Below, in pieces: positions 867 through 19,400 of a stretch of 25,425 nucleotides of DNA. The notes under the pieces are model-generated. The model was not told the origin of the DNA and made no database searches. It saw only the letters and a list, made by a program, of their open reading frames with translations. A program made the position numbers and the translations under genes. The DNA is from a virus, in the IMG/VR virus record IMGVR_UViG_3300020220_000295, positions 1-25,425 of that record. One strand, given 5' to 3'. Numbering within the stretch: position 1 is the stretch's first letter; every line of letters starts with the position of its first letter.

Positions 867-893
867 AAAAAAAGACCCCCTTTTGGGGGGTCT
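867..893 (-). terminator. Intrinsic terminator after gp23
   Basis: On the minus strand an 8-bp stem AGACCCCC / GGGGGTCT closes a CAAAA loop and is followed directly by seven T residues. It lies 20 bases after the gp23 stop and faces the right way to end the major capsid transcript. The T tract is on the minus-strand side only, which fixes the orientation. Confidence 0.93.
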
Positions 894-912
894 CCATAAC
901 TATCAAACTGAA

Positions 913-8499: not shown

Positions 8500-10159
8500 A
8501 AGACCATAGATAGGAGACTTCTGTGTGTCTATCACCGTATTCATCAAGGTGCCAAGTATCACCACTTTCATCGGTAAAAATCCGATCTTCATCTTCTAAT
8601 CCATCAAGAATAAAACCAAATGGCGCCATGTCTTGCTCAATTTGATTTTTCTGTTCGTCATAGATTCTTTTTCTGACATCATTGTCAGTCATTTCTTTGA
8701 AGTATGGTTGCATTGCTAACCATGCAAAAATAACTAAACACATTGCTAGATCATCGTTGTGTCCTTCATCCGCTTCAAACGATCCATTTTTTTCAATAAA
8801 TGTTGTCAATTCTCCAATGATATCAAAATCAGTAATTAATAATTTATCATCTTCAATAAAAGTTTTTAAGTTTGCACATCCAACTTTCTTGACGGTTTTA
8901 GACATCTTAATGCCTAACTGAGTTTTAGTGCCAGAGAATCCTTGTCCCACAATTTGTCCTGCTCTACCTCGCATAGAGCACATGAGAACATTAGGATACT
9001 CTAAATCATAGTGTAAAATATCTGCAACTTGATCACCAATGTCATTGATCTCTGTCAACACATATGCTTTATTATAGTTAACTGCAACATCTCTAATAAT
9101 GTTTGGAAAAAGCATTGGTTTAATTGTATTATTTCTATACTTACCGACAATGGTATACGGCACTTTAGTTATATCATATACAATAAAAGCAGAATAGTCA
9201 TGTGACACTCCTCTGGAAACATCGGCGGTAATAATATAATCATGATCTTTTTCTGCTTTTTGGTATATTTGAAGACCTTTTAAATTATCTTGAATTGGGT
9301 CTTCATATACCATAGATCTTAATTTTGCTGCAGAAATTAAAGTATCTACAGATCCCAAGAAATTACATTCAAATTCTTGCTCAAACTGTCTAGCAGAAGT
9401 GTTGCGTATAGTTTCTTCTTTCCAATCTTGATCTCTTCCAGGCACTTGAGACCAATGTACTTCTAGAGGCACATAACCATTTTTACCACGCTCAGCATCA
9501 TGCCAAAGTTTATAAAACATATTCATACCCTGTGGGGTAGAAATAATAATAACCTTTGTTGTTTTACCAGACGAAATAGTAGGATATACTGAGCTAAAGA
9601 ATTGCTCTGCAATATGGTTTGGAATGAATGCAAATTCATCAAGAAAAATAATATTAAAAGAGTTACCTCTAACAGCGCTAGAAGAGGTTGAGGCAGCAAT
9701 TATCTTTGATCCATTCTCTAACTCTAATGATCCTTTATTCCATGCTACAATCCCTTGCTGCATCCACTTAGGAAGGTTTTCATATGCGAGTTGTAATCTT
9801 GATAATAATTCTCTAGAAGTTTCTGCTTTATTAGCAAGAATAGCAATTCTTACGTTTGCATTAAATATTGCAAAATATAATAGATATCCAATAACTGTAG
9901 TAGATTTACCTGTTTGTCTTGGAAGTTTTGCAATATTAAATCTATTCTCGTGAAAGTTTTTAATTAGTTGCTCTTGAAAATCATACATATCAAAAGGCAC
10001 AAGACCTTCATCAAGAGAAATAATTTTAATATATTTTTTTGCAAAATAAACAGGATTTTGCTCACAAAAAATCCATTCTTGTATTTGCTTTTGTGTAAAA
10101 TTTATTTTGGTATTCGCTTTTTTTAAATTAGGATTACCAAGGTATAGTGCATCACTCAC
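8495..10159 (-). CDS. gp17: Terminase large subunit gp17 (packaging ATPase/nuclease)
   Basis: Pumps DNA into the prohead through the portal and cuts concatemers. It has 554 residues (T4: 610). ATPase motifs: Walker A RQTGKST at 81-87, Walker B NIIFLDE at 169-175, coupling motif IIISTPQG at 204-211. Nuclease (RNase H-like) acidic residues: Asp313 in ITADVSRG, Glu370 in LTEINDIG and Asp469/470 in GHNDDLAM, corresponding to T4 D401, E458 and D542. The start is GTG: an in-frame TAA lies immediately before it and no in-frame ATG appears before residue 58, so GTG is needed to keep the conserved N-terminus. The start overlaps the end of the upstream 79-residue gene by 8 bases, so translation is probably coupled. 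Confidence 0.97.
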   Translation of the reverse strand: MSDALYLGNPNLKKANTKINFTQKQIQEWIFCEQNPVYFAKKYIKIISLDEGLVPFDMYDFQEQLIKNFHENRFNIAKLPRQTGKSTTVIGYLLYFAIFNANVRIAILANKAETSRELLSRLQLAYENLPKWMQQGIVAWNKGSLELENGSKIIAASTSSSAVRGNSFNIIFLDEFAFIPNHIAEQFFSSVYPTISSGKTTKVIIISTPQGMNMFYKLWHDAERGKNGYVPLEVHWSQVPGRDQDWKEETIRNTSARQFEQEFECNFLGSVDTLISAAKLRSMVYEDPIQDNLKGLQIYQKAEKDHDYIITADVSRGVSHDYSAFIVYDITKVPYTIVGKYRNNTIKPMLFPNIIRDVAVNYNKAYVLTEINDIGDQVADILHYDLEYPNVLMCSMRGRAGQIVGQGFSGTKTQLGIKMSKTVKKVGCANLKTFIEDDKLLITDFDIIGELTTFIEKNGSFEADEGHNDDLAMCLVIFAWLAMQPYFKEMTDNDVRKRIYDEQKNQIEQDMAPFGFILDGLEDEDRIFTDESGDTWHLDEYGDRHTEVSYLWSF

Positions 10160-10417: not shown

Positions 10418-10446
10418 ACTATATATGACAAAAAAATGTTTGTCAA
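10418..10446 (-). promoter_or_regulatory. Sigma70-like promoter before the 79-aa gene and terL
   Basis: On the minus strand a perfect -35 TTGACA (10441-10446) and a -10 TATAGT (10418-10423) are separated by exactly 17 bp. The predicted start is about 20 bases before the ATG at 10391. This is a host-type, early-class promoter, not a T4 late octamer. No late octamer is seen in the same gap. Confidence 0.7.
10426..10445. repeat. Inverted repeat over the sigma70-like promoter
   Basis: TGACAAA at 10426-10432 and TTTGTCA at 10439-10445 form perfect 7-bp arms around a 6-base spacer. The repeat covers most of the -35 hexamer and the spacer, where a repressor operator would be expected. It lacks a T tract on either strand beyond the arms, so it is not an obvious terminator. 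Confidence 0.5.
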
Positions 10447-13158: not shown

Positions 13159-13965
13159 TCAACCTATCATAAAGTTTGCTGGCAATTGATATTCGATATT
13201 AATACGATCTTCAAGATCTTCAATCTCTTTTAATGCATCTTCATATAATTGACGCCCGTTTAATTGCACTCCTCCTGGAAGTTGCACATTATTAAATTTA
13301 ATAAGATTTTGCCCCCATTGTTTTTTAATTAATGCAGTAACATATCTTTTAATAAATTCATTGTTATAAACTTTATTAAAGTCTAGTGGATCTATAAGAC
13401 GATAACAATCAATAATAATATACCTGTCTTTGGTTAAATTTTTTGCTTCGTAATCAATATATAATCTTCCTTGAGATTTAGTAAAACGAATTTGCATAAA
13501 TGCACCAGTATTTAAAACCATATCTAATGTTTCTAGATATGATTTTGTCATATAATAATTAAGAATATCAAGTGATCCAAAAGCGTATAAATCATTTAAA
13601 AACATTTGATATTCAATACCAAATAAATCTCCACGAATACTACTAGATACGAAAGAAAACATTCTTTCAATTCCTATGACATGATCGGGCACTTCAATAT
13701 AATTTCTTCTTTCTTCCCAATCGGATCCACTTGCTGTTGTAGACGTAGCATTACTTGTTGTAAATCTAGTTACGTCTGCGTCGGTTATTTTGTGTTTTAA
13801 AAAGACTCTTTCAACTCCATCGAAATGACGGTCATTGAAATATTGAAAAGCATCATCGATAGCATCTTCAATTTGATCGTCATCAACGTTAATCTCTAAA
13901 ACAGGCGCACCTAATTTTCGTAAGCAATAATCTTTTAATTCTGCTCTACTAGATGGTTTTGCCAT
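13159..13965 (-). CDS. gp13: Neck protein gp13
   Basis: A head-completion protein that binds beneath the portal after packaging and works with gp14. It has 268 residues (T4: 309). It starts MAKPSSRAELKDYCLRKLGAPVLEINVDDDQIEDAIDDAFQYFNDRHFDG, the family's helical portal-adaptor region. It is the first gene of the gp13-14-15-16 operon. Its Shine-Dalgarno-like AGGGG lies in the 3' arm of a hairpin immediately upstream, and a perfect TATAAATA late promoter overlaps the 5' arm, so translation may depend on where the transcript begins. Confidence 0.95.
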   Translation of the reverse strand: MAKPSSRAELKDYCLRKLGAPVLEINVDDDQIEDAIDDAFQYFNDRHFDGVERVFLKHKITDADVTRFTTSNATSTTASGSDWEERRNYIEVPDHVIGIERMFSFVSSSIRGDLFGIEYQMFLNDLYAFGSLDILNYYMTKSYLETLDMVLNTGAFMQIRFTKSQGRLYIDYEAKNLTKDRYIIIDCYRLIDPLDFNKVYNNEFIKRYVTALIKKQWGQNLIKFNNVQLPGGVQLNGRQLYEDALKEIEDLEDRINIEYQLPANFMIG

Positions 13966-13997
13966 AAAAAAATACCCCTAGTTTCCTAGAGGTATTT
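13966..13997 (-). terminator. GNRA-loop hairpin and T tract between the 1777-aa gene and gp13
   Basis: On the minus strand AAATACCTCTAG and CTAGGGGTATTT pair over 12 bp (one U-G wobble) around a GAAA tetraloop. The 3' arm runs into seven T residues ending at the gp13 ATG. It can act as an intrinsic terminator for the upstream gene and also hides the AGGGG ribosome binding site of gp13. Confidence 0.85.
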
Positions 13998-14000
13998 ATA
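13993..14000 (-). promoter_or_regulatory. Late promoter TATAAATA for gp13 operon
   Basis: The minus strand reads TATAAATA, the exact T4 late octamer, and its last five bases are part of the hairpin 5' arm. Using T4 geometry, transcription would begin near 13987, giving a leader of about 22 bases that lacks most of the 5' arm. Confidence 0.72.
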
Positions 14001-14021
14001 CTGAAGTTATATTTATAAGGA

Positions 14022-17000
14022 TTATGCCTGTGCTTCTTCCCAGGAGAGACGAGCAAATAGCACACCTGATTGATTTGCAGAAAGATTCTGTGCTGTGATT
14101 GTAATTACATCAGGACCATCAGGATATGTGCCATCACCACCGATGATGGAGTGTCCAAGGTCTTTAACTCTAGATAGGTCAGCTGCTGTTACGGTAAAGT
14201 TGGTGCCTCCAGCAGCAGATGCATATAGAGCGAAGATAACGTCACCACCAACAATTATATCACCTGGGTTATGATAAATTACCTGAGATAGTGATCCAGA
14301 TCCAACCGCCTGTGCTTGCCAGTTTGCTGGAGTAAACGAAGTTGAGGTAGCATTAAGACGAACTGAAATTAGGAAAGCACCCTGGCTGTAAATACCTAGA
14401 GAGTTTAACAATAATTGCATTCTATTAATTACGTTTCTAATGCCAAAGTTTCTAGCAATAGAAGCTTCTACCGATGGTGCGATACGAATTGAAAGAATAG
14501 GAGCAGTTTGGTTGGGAGCAATAACAGAAGCGGTAGATCTTGGAGTAGTAAAGACGTATGATTTATCACTGTCAAATCTACCATCCATTATGGCGCTAAC
14601 ACCCCAATGCTGCATAGTAGGTGTGCAGTTTTGAGTTGCACAGAATACTGTAGATGCTGCGGTTGATATTGTGTATGCAGTGTGATTTGCTTCTGCTGAT
14701 CCTCTTCTAGCTACAGGTAATGTAACGTTGTTATTTGCTGTTACTGTTGCTGGTTGATCAACAAAAAATTGATTTGCACTATTAATACCAGTAATTCTTA
14801 GAGGAGTAACGAAGTTAAATTGTGTGATTGGCGGAACGATAATTTGACCAACTTTAAAGTTAGAGTTTCCTGCAGCTGCTAGAGTAACAACATTTGATCC
14901 AACTGTTGTAGAGGCGTTTGTTATCCCAGATGTACCACTTACATATGATGCTTCTCTAACGCATCCAGTTAATCTGTTTGGACCAATTACTAGTGTTGGA
15001 GCAGATGTATAACCAAAACCAGGATTAATAATTTCAACTTCTACAATTTGACCATTATTTAAAACGGCTTTAAATTGAGCACCAAAACCACCTCCACCTT
15101 TTACCATAATTGGTGGCTCATTACTATATTGAGCACCTTGTTGACCAACTGGTACTGTTACAGTAGCAATTTTACCACCTACAACTGTGCAAGTTGCAGT
15201 TGCTACTACTGGAGCAGATGCACCATTAAACCATGGTGATGCATTAGATGCGTTTGCAGTGACATCAGTGTAAGCAAAAAACTCGCCATCAATCAATGCT
15301 TCGCCATTAGTTACCGTGCCAACTGGCACGAAGAAGTTAGCAGCACTTGCTACATCAATGTTTCCTGGAGATGCTATAGTAAAACCAGAAGTAGTAATAG
15401 CAGTTGTTAATCTTGTCTCTTTAGGATTATTTGCAACTTCAAAACGTCCAGGTAAGTTACCAGATCTTAAGTATGCTTGTACTTCGGTGTTGTTATGTTG
15501 CATTTTATGGCAATACATTATATCGCCATCTTTTGCTCTTATACCCCAGCGAATGAATCCAGCACCATACCAAGTATAATCGATGTAAACCATCTGAATT
15601 TTATTGGTATCAATAGTATAATTAGAAGGACCAGTGCCATCTAATCTATCAATATTGAAATTGGTTGATGCTACTCTTGTTTCTACTACTTTAGTTGCTC
15701 TAACTGCAGCATCTTCTGCAAATACTTTAGTGATAGCTGAAGTATGGTAAGTACCACCAGTAATTGTTTGCTCTAATGCAAAACCAAGAGCAGTTGATTG
15801 AAGAATCATTGTTCCTGAAGCAGTAGATAAACCAACAACACCAGATGTTGGAGTGCTATTCAGCGTGAATGTTGTTGCACTTATAATATCGCGAATAAAG
15901 AATAAAGTATTGGCAGTTACGTTACCAAATGTGCTGCCAGTAAATGTAACTGGCATACCTTCAAATAATGATGCAGTTGATGAGCAAGTTACTACGTTTG
16001 ATGACGTTGTAGTATTAGTGCAAGCAACTCTAATTTCTTTAGATTGTACCGCTACTGGGTGGACATCATTAAACGCAACGTTTGAAGCGTTAGCAACTGA
16101 AATTCTTGATCCAACAGCAAGCGCAGGTAGTACTGTTATGTTGCCACCAGAGGCAGTAGATAGAGTAACGTTTGTTCCTCCAGGTACGGTACTTAAGGTA
16201 AGAGTACCCGCTGCAGGCGTTGATGTTACATAATAATATCTATTGGTAACTAAACCACCAATTGACGCACCAGAAAGGTGAACTAGTTGTCCTATTTGTA
16301 AACCGTGGGCGGCGGACAAGGTGATGACGCCCCCCGCAGCTGTCGTATTAGTAATGGTAAGAGTATTACCAGAACCAATTGTCTCTCCAAGTGGCGCACT
16401 AAGTGTAGCAGTGTTATTTGTAGGATTCCATGATGTAATTACTGTACCTGGTGAAACTGACATTGATCCAGAAAGTTGTAATCCAGGTCTGATATCAGTT
16501 AAACCAGGGTTTGCTGAGCTGAATTGAACTGTAGTTGCACCAGAAGAAACAGTTACTGCGTTGAGTCTTAATAAAGCAGACGTTGCTTGTGAGTTACCCA
16601 CAAAAGTAATAGCGGTGCTGTTAGCAACTGCGTTAGTAATAGGTGGAGTTATCGAAATTGAGTTACCAGTCACCGAAACAACTGTGGTATTTGATGGAAT
16701 ACCAGTACCAACAATTGTCATACCAGGAGAAATATTAAGACCACTAGCAAGCGCAAGAACGCTTACTGGTTGAGCAATTCCTGCTCCAGAAACACCAGGA
16801 ACTCCACCGAAAGTATAAGCTCCAGTCGCGCCCCCTGTCATTGCATTGGTAATGGTAACAGTGTTACCAACTACAGAAGATACAAATGTACCTGCAGGAA
16901 TGTTTGATCCAGAAACATGTTGACCAGCAACAACACCCGCAGAACTGTTTAGGTTAAACTGATATACATTATTACCACCACCGCTACCCGTTGGTGTTAC

Positions 17001-19355
17001 TGTTGCAAGTGTAGTTGAAGCAGACATATTGATCCATCCAATCTGGGTGCCTCCATTTGCCTGACCAGAATATGTGGTAATCTGTGAGTATGGAACTCCG
17101 TTATTACCTAAGTTAGTTGATGGAGTCGCTGCTCTATAGAATGGAGAAACATGGACAGATGTATCACTAGTAACAGCTTTCACAATATAAACTTGACCTC
17201 TTACAACAAGTTTATCTCCTTGATTAAGTTGTCTAGTAAACTTTGTGTTAACTCCTGTAATTAAAGACGATCCAGTCAATATATTAATACTTCCTCTCAA
17301 TACGGTAGTGCTGTTTCTTCTAACAGCAAAGAATCCTTGTCCATCAAATTCCCAGAAGAAACCATTAGTATCATCAAATAGACCCAATCTTGTAGTCGAT
17401 CCGCTAGATTGTCCTACGGTAACTTGAGCATCTCCACCAGGATTAGTATCTGTAGGAGTTGCTGTTAGAGTTAATGTAAACGTTTTTGGTGTTATTGCTG
17501 GAGTACCAGCTACAACGTGAGCTCTATTAAATAGAGCATTTTCTGACGAAACTGAAGATGCGACACCAGAGATAAACACTATTGATCCTGGTTGTAGTCC
17601 ATGATCTTGGTCTGTAGTAAATGTTGCAGTTGTACCAGATACAGAAATTGAAACTATATCGTAAGATGGTTTAAACAAAGAAGCAGTTGAGAATTGAATA
17701 CCTTTACCAGACTGATAACGGAAATATCTTCTTGTTTGTCGCAGAGCATAGTCAAATAAATTATTTGTTCCTGGAGAAATTTGTACGCCACCGTCAGTCG
17801 ATCTATGTAGTTGAGTGCCTTCTGGTCTTACAAAGATTTGTGTAGCAGGAGATGCCTGCGAAAGAACTGGCGTGAATGAAATTGTTGTTGCGCTTGCAAC
17901 TTGTGTTGTTACAGGTCGATTTATTCTTACAAATAATCCACTATTAAACGTGCCTACAACAAACGATCCCTCAGGAATATTCGTGCCAGTAATTCTGGAT
18001 CCGATGGCTGGGTTTGGAGCTGAAGCAAATTTAAGCACATTAGATCCAGCCACAGTGATAGCATTAGTATTTGCAGTTGTAGCAGCGGCTGCACTAGTTG
18101 CAGCTGGGATATAATATGTGAATGTAAACTCAGTTGGACACGAAGCAACAGTAAAACTACCTTGAGCATTGAGTCCTGCCGCTTGTAAGTTAGAAATGAA
18201 AATAGGAGCTCCAGGATATAAACCATGTCCCTGTAAACAGTTAACTGTAATTTCTCTAGGAGAAGCAGAAGTAGAAGTTACTGAAAAAATTCTTAAGGCA
18301 GATCCAATAACGTTAGTATTGAATATTTGACCTGAATATACTGTAGTGCTTCCCAATTTAACGAGATCATTTGTCGCCGTGAATAGTGATTTTGCTTTGT
18401 AGAAGAAAGATCTTGAAGCTGTATTAGATCCTAATAGGAAGAAAGTGCCATCAGCGGCAATTTCGTTTAGAGATTCTGATATGTTAATTGGGCTATTTGC
18501 TGTTAAGTTAGCACCAATAGCACTGATATCATTAGATACACCAAGAACTACAAAAGATCCAGCGCCAAAAGATCCTTGAGTTGGAGTTATACCACCAAAT
18601 ACTACACATGCACCAGTGTAAGTACCGTTAGCAGCAGAGGAGAAGAATTGAACTTGGCTAGTTGTTGCATTAGGAAGGACAGAAAATCTTACGTTAGTGA
18701 AGTTGGCTAGATTATTGGCTTCAACTACATAAACGAAACTGCCTTCTGAAGGAGCTGCTGGTAAAGAAAGACCACTAATTGTTGCAACGTTACCACTCAC
18801 AGAGATGCTTTGGTTAAGTAATGTAAAACCCATACCACCTAAAATAGGTGTTAGTGGAGAATCTGAAGGTCTTATATAATAGGATGGAAGGTTGTTATGT
18901 CCTTGAAGGAATTCCCATTTAGTAGGTTGAAGACCTAATTCAAAGTCAGTATCGATTAGAGACTGGGGTGTTGAGATTCTAAATTTATTAGCGGGATCAA
19001 CATAAGTTTCAGCAGGAAGCATTCTTACTGCTGAATAAATCTCTTCGGTATAGATAGATAACTTATCACTTGCAGAGTGTCCAGTAGTAGCAACCTTTAG
19101 AGTAAGAGTTGTGTAACCGTCCCATGGTTGAATACCAGGAACAGTGGAAGTTCCTATGTTTGCTTCGGCAGGTGGGGTGTAAACAGCAGAAACAATTCCT
19201 CTGACTGAATCTGAAAAATTATAAATGATTTCATTTCTGGTAACATTAGTAATAACTAAAATATTAGTTAAATCAATTTTTCCAGGCACAATAACTTTAG
19301 TGTTATTAGCTGCTCCTGGAACATAAGTGTAATTGTAAATTCTTACTCTTGCCAT
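14022..19355 (-). CDS. Large mosaic virion structural protein (fibre/adhesin-like)
   Basis: A 1777-residue Thr/Ser/Gly/Val-rich protein, starting MARVRIYNYTYVPGAANNTK, with no signal peptide or membrane span. It is built from repeat types common in phage tail and adhesin proteins. Units like GSRITGTNIPEGSFVV lie near residues 452-467, 808-823, 875-890 and 953-972. HGLxxGxxVxxSG units lie near 380, 583, 1015 and 1130 (the last two of the YYVTS...FTLNSTP kind). A Gly-rich unit ending NPGFGYTSAPTL lies near 1408-1455. FRYQSGKGIQFST (about 541), IDYTWYGAGFIRWG (about 1258) and YLRSGNLPGRFEV (about 1293) are motifs I recall from cyanophage structural proteins. The C-terminal 190 residues are less repetitive. 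A fibre or host-contact role is inferred. It has its own TATAAATA promoter and a CAGGAAA ribosome binding site. Confidence 0.85.
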   Translation of the reverse strand: MARVRIYNYTYVPGAANNTKVIVPGKIDLTNILVITNVTRNEIIYNFSDSVRGIVSAVYTPPAEANIGTSTVPGIQPWDGYTTLTLKVATTGHSASDKLSIYTEEIYSAVRMLPAETYVDPANKFRISTPQSLIDTDFELGLQPTKWEFLQGHNNLPSYYIRPSDSPLTPILGGMGFTLLNQSISVSGNVATISGLSLPAAPSEGSFVYVVEANNLANFTNVRFSVLPNATTSQVQFFSSAANGTYTGACVVFGGITPTQGSFGAGSFVVLGVSNDISAIGANLTANSPINISESLNEIAADGTFFLLGSNTASRSFFYKAKSLFTATNDLVKLGSTTVYSGQIFNTNVIGSALRIFSVTSTSASPREITVNCLQGHGLYPGAPIFISNLQAAGLNAQGSFTVASCPTEFTFTYYIPAATSAAAATTANTNAITVAGSNVLKFASAPNPAIGSRITGTNIPEGSFVVGTFNSGLFVRINRPVTTQVASATTISFTPVLSQASPATQIFVRPEGTQLHRSTDGGVQISPGTNNLFDYALRQTRRYFRYQSGKGIQFSTASLFKPSYDIVSISVSGTTATFTTDQDHGLQPGSIVFISGVASSVSSENALFNRAHVVAGTPAITPKTFTLTLTATPTDTNPGGDAQVTVGQSSGSTTRLGLFDDTNGFFWEFDGQGFFAVRRNSTTVLRGSINILTGSSLITGVNTKFTRQLNQGDKLVVRGQVYIVKAVTSDTSVHVSPFYRAATPSTNLGNNGVPYSQITTYSGQANGGTQIGWINMSASTTLATVTPTGSGGGNNVYQFNLNSSAGVVAGQHVSGSNIPAGTFVSSVVGNTVTITNAMTGGATGAYTFGGVPGVSGAGIAQPVSVLALASGLNISPGMTIVGTGIPSNTTVVSVTGNSISITPPITNAVANSTAITFVGNSQATSALLRLNAVTVSSGATTVQFSSANPGLTDIRPGLQLSGSMSVSPGTVITSWNPTNNTATLSAPLGETIGSGNTLTITNTTAAGGVITLSAAHGLQIGQLVHLSGASIGGLVTNRYYYVTSTPAAGTLTLSTVPGGTNVTLSTASGGNITVLPALAVGSRISVANASNVAFNDVHPVAVQSKEIRVACTNTTTSSNVVTCSSTASLFEGMPVTFTGSTFGNVTANTLFFIRDIISATTFTLNSTPTSGVVGLSTASGTMILQSTALGFALEQTITGGTYHTSAITKVFAEDAAVRATKVVETRVASTNFNIDRLDGTGPSNYTIDTNKIQMVYIDYTWYGAGFIRWGIRAKDGDIMYCHKMQHNNTEVQAYLRSGNLPGRFEVANNPKETRLTTAITTSGFTIASPGNIDVASAANFFVPVGTVTNGEALIDGEFFAYTDVTANASNASPWFNGASAPVVATATCTVVGGKIATVTVPVGQQGAQYSNEPPIMVKGGGGFGAQFKAVLNNGQIVEVEIINPGFGYTSAPTLVIGPNRLTGCVREASYVSGTSGITNASTTVGSNVVTLAAAGNSNFKVGQIIVPPITQFNFVTPLRITGINSANQFFVDQPATVTANNNVTLPVARRGSAEANHTAYTISTAASTVFCATQNCTPTMQHWGVSAIMDGRFDSDKSYVFTTPRSTASVIAPNQTAPILSIRIAPSVEASIARNFGIRNVINRMQLLLNSLGIYSQGAFLISVRLNATSTSFTPANWQAQAVGSGSLSQVIYHNPGDIIVGGDVIFALYASAAGGTNFTVTAADLSRVKDLGHSIIGGDGTYPDGPDVITITAQNLSANQSGVLFARLSWEEAQA

Positions 19356-19392: not shown

Positions 19393-19400
19393 TATTTATA
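19393..19400 (-). promoter_or_regulatory. Late promoter TATAAATA for the 1777-aa gene
   Basis: The minus strand reads TATAAATA, the exact T4 late octamer, in the 57-base gap before the ATG at 19355. The expected start leaves a leader of about 30 bases that includes the CAGGAAA ribosome binding site. Confidence 0.72.

Follow-up and report, generated by a model that had tools for sequence, protein, structure and literature searches.

Upstream of the neck gene gp13, on the minus strand of a T4-like virus fragment, a T4-type late promoter, a terminator-like hairpin and a ribosome-binding site share 35 bp (13966–14000), and the three quite probably act together as one compact switch, in which RNA ends, termination and translation are deduced steps. 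The element had been noticed earlier (the original prediction); we confirmed the observation, and its interpretation was partly supported.

The late promoter, hairpin and ribosome site upstream of gp13

The DNA analysed (the window) is 25.4 kb long and comes from IMG/VR. It belongs to a T4-like virus, and among named relatives the nearest are Synechococcus phages; all annotated genes in the examined part of it lie on the minus strand. The features that matter here are the following.

13159–13965, minus strand: gp13, neck/head-tail adaptor Ad2 (PHROG 211, E = 1.3e-48)
13963–13965, minus strand: ATG of gp13, directly 3′ of the U7 tract
13966–14000, minus strand: whole element, combining late promoter, terminator-like hairpin and ribosome site (sequence and fold; 31/31 nt in distant gp13 loci)
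13966–13972, minus strand: U7 tract, abutting the gp13 ATG, with three U inside the 12-bp stem
13970–13981, minus strand: hairpin 3′ arm, CTAGGGGTATTT (fold, terminator scan, comparison with relatives)
13975–13979, minus strand: AGGGG, Shine-Dalgarno-like, 9 nt 5′ of the ATG (duplex of the overlapping hexamer GGGGTA with the anti-Shine-Dalgarno sequence, −6.0 kcal/mol)
13982–13985, minus strand: GAAA loop (AAGA, AGGA, GAGA or GGAA in relatives)
13986–13997, minus strand: hairpin 5′ arm, AAATACCTCTAG (fold and terminator scan)
13987, minus strand: predicted +1 of the promoter-born RNA, from T4 geometry
13993–14000, minus strand: proximal late promoter of T4 type, TATAAATA, with little or no variation among relatives
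14010–14017, minus strand: distal late promoter, a perfect TATAAATA 17 bp upstream of the proximal octamer
14022–19355, minus strand: 1777-aa virion structural gene upstream of gp13 (PHROG 5838)
19393–19400, minus strand: late promoter TATAAATA of the 1777-aa gene (octamer search)

Only 56 nt separate the 1777-aa gene from gp13, and this gap holds two TATAAATA octamers (14017–14010 and 14000–13993). The hairpin (13997–13970) has 12 pairs, one of them U-G, and a GAAA loop, as had been predicted; the seven U said to follow the stem are in fact four, three being paired, so that the structure is accurately described as 9 bp plus U7 or as 12 bp plus U4. Its minimum free energy is −17.6 kcal/mol against a mean of −8.2 for dinucleotide shuffles (z = −4.15; 0 of 200 as good), and it ranks third in a terminator scan of the window, with a stronger nested pair at 895–871 ahead of it. 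As in an intrinsic terminator, a GC-containing stem runs directly into a U-run, but with only four G-C pairs and an A breaking the U-run, termination may be partial. The AGGGG lies in the 3′ arm, where it is the best ribosome site of gp13 and the sole good one, and the ATG comes directly after the U tract, both as originally described.

The AAATA of the proximal octamer doubles as the outer half of the hairpin 5′ arm. T4 geometry, in which +1 lies six bases 3′ of the last A of the octamer, places the start at 13987, leaving two of the 12 bases of the arm; here too the earlier description of a perfect octamer overlapping the arm was borne out. It had overlooked, however, the second perfect octamer at 14017–14010, whose predicted start (about 14004) lies 5′ of the hairpin. 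The distal promoter is present in the same layout in six other loci (L007, L090, L112, L135, L139 and L142); it is kept in several close relatives, and in several loci whose upstream gene ends in EAQA.

The octamers were marked as late promoters on the basis of strand bias and spacing: the coding strand carries all 11 occurrences of ATAAATA in the window, 9 of which lie 20–51 nt before an ATG (with the ORF list). The octamer TATAAATA is not over-represented in the window (4 found, 2.7 expected), and, as expected of a T4-type late promoter, it precedes late genes in their own orientation. The cyanomyovirus late promoter motif is NATAAATA (PMC2984593), and in T4 about one helical turn separates the TATA box from the start downstream of it (PMC2988020). 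One of the 15 promoter-like sites in the window overlaps a U-tailed hairpin; the Markov controls gave none.

Computed masking of the ribosome site

The energy needed to open the ribosome site was computed for RNA reading through from upstream and for RNA born at the promoter. Over 65 distinct leaders the median falls from 14.9 kcal/mol in the read-through RNA to 1.8 kcal/mol in the promoter-born RNA; gp13 leaders lacking a promoter have an open site (2.6 kcal/mol). By computation the Shine-Dalgarno sequence is sequestered in the 3′ strand, as in the T4 e, 49 and I-TevI leaders. For the window the corresponding values are 14.3 and 5.4 kcal/mol, the latter still elevated through the weak pairing that AGGGG can form with gp13 codons 3–6 (minimum free energy −7.0, z = −0.25). 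The computed opening energies support sequestration and release of the ribosome site, although the predicted release is only partial in the window RNA.

Conservation of the element upstream of gp13

The motif AAATACCTCTANNNNACTAGGGGTATTTTTT matches at least 119 IMG/VR stretches. Among the matches listed, the 31-nt element sequence precedes gp13 in 111 of 111 readable copies, each with the TATAAATA octamer or its TAAATA core on the 5′ side, and the genes upstream of it have many different, unrelated C-termini. One cultured INPHARED phage, S-SCSM2R, carries the identical element as a single copy, located at 101639–101679 of PQ898602.1. The gp13-core pattern occurs at most once in each complete genome searched; a dispersed repeat was rejected, the CTAGGGG core being found once in S-SCSM2R and being absent from S-BM3 and S-RSM4. 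Between the window and distant carriers the element is identical at 31 of 31 nt, while gp13 agrees at no more than 23–54% of its four-fold degenerate sites, so the element is strongly constrained or was transferred. Carriers of a near-identical element are found on both sides of a branch with 99% support in the gp13 tree.

Protein-driven sampling of gp13, which is blind to the leader, yielded 234 distinct leaders. The promoter lies inside a U-tailed hairpin in 93 of 157 distinct promoter-bearing gp13 leaders, against 1.9% when the flanks were shuffled around the fixed promoter, the size of this class being threshold-dependent (77, 93 or about 160 leaders, according to the settings and the set used). 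The same layout is built from unrelated stems: AAATCCCTTCTT/AAGAAGGGATTT (the type of the cultured phage S-RSM4, with the promoter placed in the loop), AGACCCTTCTTAT/ATAAGAAGGGTCT, CTACCCTTCCTA/TAGGAAGGGTAT, GTCCTCTAC/GTAGAGGAC and, in the likewise cultured S-PM2, AAATCCCTATCTG/CAGGTAGGGATTT. Stems of the GAAGGG type covary, the outer pairs beside the CCC/GGG core being T-A, A-T or G-C with pairing kept (counted by script, as the MAFFT alignment was too gappy for pair counts). Taken by itself, the CTAGGGG family covaries weakly, since its 3′ arm hardly varies and changes in the 5′ arm are mostly C-to-U wobbles. The prediction that the overlap of stem and promoter would be conserved in related phages thus holds for gp13 leaders, and also before other genes (see below).

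We also compared 950 pairs of leaders in which gp13 is a near relative and the upstream DNA unrelated. Identity is about 0.35 beyond −23, mostly 0.8–0.95 in the 5′ arm and about 0.97 in promoter and leader; the outer end of the 5′ arm is where it sets in, which indicates that the arm travels with promoter and leader. Masking is not obligatory for gp13, since in some relatives (L206–L215) a separate terminator precedes a late promoter that is not masked, and some close relatives possess the promoter and the ribosome site but lack the 5′ arm. Many other gp13 leaders have no promoter and an open GGAGG within the last part of the preceding gene. Identical or nearly identical gp13 genes can have different leaders (L219 versus L218; L215, L216 and L005), these being without promoter, with a separate terminator, without 5′ arm or with the full hairpin; such cases represent recent exchange of the upstream module. 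A recombination tract reaching into gp13 was considered, but 20-codon windows gave no clear sign of one, the first 60 codons being more similar both in protein and in DNA. No late promoter precedes gp13 in T4, P-SSM2 or Syn9, and a design common to T4 gene 13 was rejected accordingly. The element corresponds to no known RNA family in Rfam (best score 24 bits against a gathering score of 52).

The same layout upstream of other genes

Whole genomes were scanned for a late promoter inside a U-tailed hairpin. One or two sites were found per genome, Markov-shuffled controls of four genomes giving 0–1: gp13 and a RusA-like Holliday resolvase in S-PM2, gp13 and SSCSM2R_174 in S-SCSM2R, gp13 in S-RSM4 (first 140 kb) and gp13 only in the window. 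The resolvase leader (L447:15169–15200, which is S-PM2 115169–115200) has counterparts in L480–L559, and among RusA-like resolvase leaders from IMG/VR the layout is seen in 38 of 59 distinct cases. The second S-SCSM2R site (L469:1612–1645, which is S-SCSM2R 148611–148644) has the same architecture, ATAAATAGCCCCCGTAAGGGGGTTTTTTTCATG, before a hypothetical gene of PHROG 13937.

A gene-blind pattern was then used, with TAAATACC and GGTATTTTTTTATG fixed and 8–20 free bases between them. Among the matches listed it gave at least 111 readable elements (48 gp13, 26 RusA and 37 others); these counts are lower bounds, and they are not independent trials because the sequences are related. The layout was found before about a dozen gene families, including, by PHROG, tail fibre assembly, tail tube, baseplate wedge, homing endonucleases and HNH endonuclease. 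Each of the 49 distinct free interiors lengthens the stem, by 2–7 pairs; shuffled interiors reach 2 pairs in 15% of cases. In a hand-picked, structure-alignable set (n = 18), 95.8% of cells are paired, covariation is 0.382 (0.142 when shuffled, at most 0.124 when slid) and 28 double changes are seen (8.7 when shuffled, at most 5 when slid). The compensatory stem changes that had been anticipated in relatives were found, far beyond the gp13 junction, and this variety of stems and genes appears to be the strongest evidence for the element.

Comparison with known systems

The promoter/hairpin scan was run on T4 as a positive control. It recovered e, identified by position, and two sites that we take, from their opening codons, to be those of 49 and I-TevI. 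Further overlaps of late promoter and hairpin lie near 45638, 71916 and 71948 of T4 NC_000866. The likeness to T4 that had been proposed is therefore right in kind. T4 e, soc, 49 and I-TevI are described as having sequestered ribosome sites, and e and I-TevI as having late promoters that bypass them (PMC3014915, PMC2988022). Leaders of the T4 e type share with the window a late promoter in the 5′ arm, a ribosome site in the 3′ arm and a late RNA that loses the 5′ arm, the last point agreeing with the window sequence if +1 is as predicted. The T4 e leader reads TATAAATACCTTCTATAAATACTTAGGAGGTATTATG, with the same AAATACC/GGTATT closing stem as the window and likewise two late promoters; in e, however, both promoters lie within or over the stem, whereas the distal one of the window lies outside it, and e has no U-run between stem and ATG where the window has a terminator-like U7. 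The same geometry without a long U-run is seen in T4 49 and I-TevI. In T4 the role is temporal silencing of early and middle read-through, but the gene upstream of gp13 is itself late, a virion gene with its own promoter at 19393–19400. For this reason the element was filed as a variant of the T4 leaders rather than as a plain member; that it is a variant of the T4 e/49-type leader and works like those leaders is the best reading. T4 gene 49 is itself a resolvase gene and carries the T4 form of the trick seen before the RusA-like resolvases.

Leaders of the homing endonucleases mobE, segB and I-TevI have a hairpin masking the ribosome site and a late promoter bypassing it, with no U-tract reported in the accessible part of that source (PMC2988022); homing endonucleases are likewise among the genes behind the general element. 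T4 too has a hairpin at its wac/13 junction, separating the whisker gene from gene 13, but no late promoter is present there and the ribosome site is outside the hairpin.

PeSL cassettes, reportedly described by Arbiol in 2010 and Comeau in 2014, are said to be composites in which an early promoter follows a stem-loop. They are composite terminator/early-promoter stem-loop cassettes at shuffled junctions (PMC4503421), and share with our element a short conserved stem-loop and a promoter at junctions with exchanged upstream genes. The window element is such a conserved block, but its promoter is the late-type TATAAATA inside and overlapping the hairpin, with the ribosome site included, rather than an early (sigma-70) promoter after the stem-loop. 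What is new relative to T4 is the terminator-like U-run, use at virion genes behind a late gene, the near-fixed sequence at gp13 and recurrence at many genes. Novelty is judged here against the literature searched, which, the S-PM2 paper included, yielded no RNA-end, termination or translation data for these leaders.

Proposed mechanism and alternative explanations

From sequence, predicted fold, conservation, covariation and recurrence at other genes we infer a scheme whose RNA 5′ and 3′ ends, termination efficiency and translation are deduced. Polymerase arriving from the 1777-aa gene would transcribe AAATACCTCTAG-GAAA-CTAGGGGTATTTTTTT, the hairpin would form before the U-run and most transcripts would end there. 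In read-through RNA, and in RNA from the distal promoter, AGGGG would be folded into the stem and gp13 left untranslated. A T4-type late polymerase (gp55/gp33/gp45 system) would initiate at the TATAAATA inside the hairpin, with +1 near 13987; the resulting RNA, lacking the 5′ arm, would not stop at the U-run and would expose AGGGG, so that gp13 would be translated from a 22-nt leader. Across the class, such RNA would start either in the 5′ arm or in the loop. The net effect at the locus would be that the neck operon and the structural gene before it are uncoupled. The promoter AAATA also pairs with the U-run as the A-rich side, which is how the parts fit in 35 bp. Since the upstream gene has a late promoter of its own, insulation fits the locus better than the T4-like timing role first suggested, and insulation is the likely role at gp13. 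The 3′ arm of the terminator lies downstream of +1, so the promoter is not shielded from upstream polymerases. Against the switch stand the residual pairing of the ribosome site with codons 3–6, the possibly partial termination, the relatives without masking and the distal promoter, whose RNA would retain the whole hairpin and be silent or terminated, a product superfluous to the model.

The most serious rival, possible though doubtful, is that a plain terminator and a promoter are merely packed tightly and that hiding of the ribosome site is a by-product of the G-rich 3′ arm serving as Shine-Dalgarno sequence. A terminator needs a G-rich 3′ arm and a U-run anyway, and the relatives with a separate terminator upstream of an unmasked promoter fit this view; yet the class opening energy drops by 13 kcal/mol in the promoter-born RNA, and in T4 e, 49 and I-TevI masking is the documented function of the same geometry (PMC3014915, PMC2988022). 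That the block is kept mainly for homologous exchange of upstream fibre modules, as a recombination joint like the PeSL cassettes of T4-type phages, is unlikely, even though identity ends at the outer edge of the element where upstream genes differ, many different genes lie upstream of it and near-identical copies occur in gp13 clades split by the 99% branch. A pure homology block needs neither covarying stems nor the same layout with different stems at unrelated genes, and it sits poorly with a single gp13-core copy at most per complete genome searched.

Terminator hairpins often protect RNA 3′ ends, and the T4 wac/13 hairpin has no promoter, so the structure might be a processing or stability hairpin that protects the upstream mRNA 3′ end or offers a nuclease site, the promoter overlap being secondary. 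This seems improbable, as the octamer belongs to the stem in virtually all copies and genes with different neighbours are preceded by the same design. That an AT-rich octamer and a terminator overlap by chance would agree with the unremarkable TATAAATA count in the window, but it is contradicted by conservation, covariation and the 0–1 overlaps in Markov controls of four genomes, and the extension of the stem by every one of the 49 interiors (15% when shuffled) refutes it; its probability is negligible. The switch remains our preferred reading.

A probable recurrent class of insulated leaders

Beyond gp13, it seems rather likely, if less so than the switch itself, that T4-like phages of aquatic bacteria have a recurrent class of about 35 bp, TAAATACC-(covarying stem-loop)-GGTATTTTTTTATG, which merges terminator, late promoter and conditional ribosome site before at least 12 unrelated genes (neck, baseplate, tail tube, tail fibre, RusA resolvase, GIY-YIG-type homing and HNH endonucleases). 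Each gene would be readable from its own late promoter only, and the class would be a general insulation device. If so, genes could be shuffled without inheriting their neighbours' transcription, which suggests how late genes keep independent expression while neighbouring fibre genes swap; and a few isolated T4 cases (e, soc, 49 and I-TevI) would become a sequence class searchable in any T4-like genome. The parts are compact and testable, one arm being predicted to govern termination and translation with the promoter octamer untouched, and the culturable Synechococcus phage S-SCSM2R, bearing the identical element, makes the claim directly testable.

Two other sites in the window deserve mention. 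At 871–895 (minus strand) a strong separate terminator (GGAGACCCCCCAAAAGGGGGTC plus U-run) is followed by CTAAATA before the gene at 325–840, in a non-overlapping arrangement. At 10418–10446 (minus strand) a near-consensus sigma-70-like promoter (TTGACA-17-TATAGT) precedes the gene of the terminase large subunit, whose listed start is a GTG at 10159; no ORF of 80 aa or more is listed on the minus strand between 10160 and 10455.
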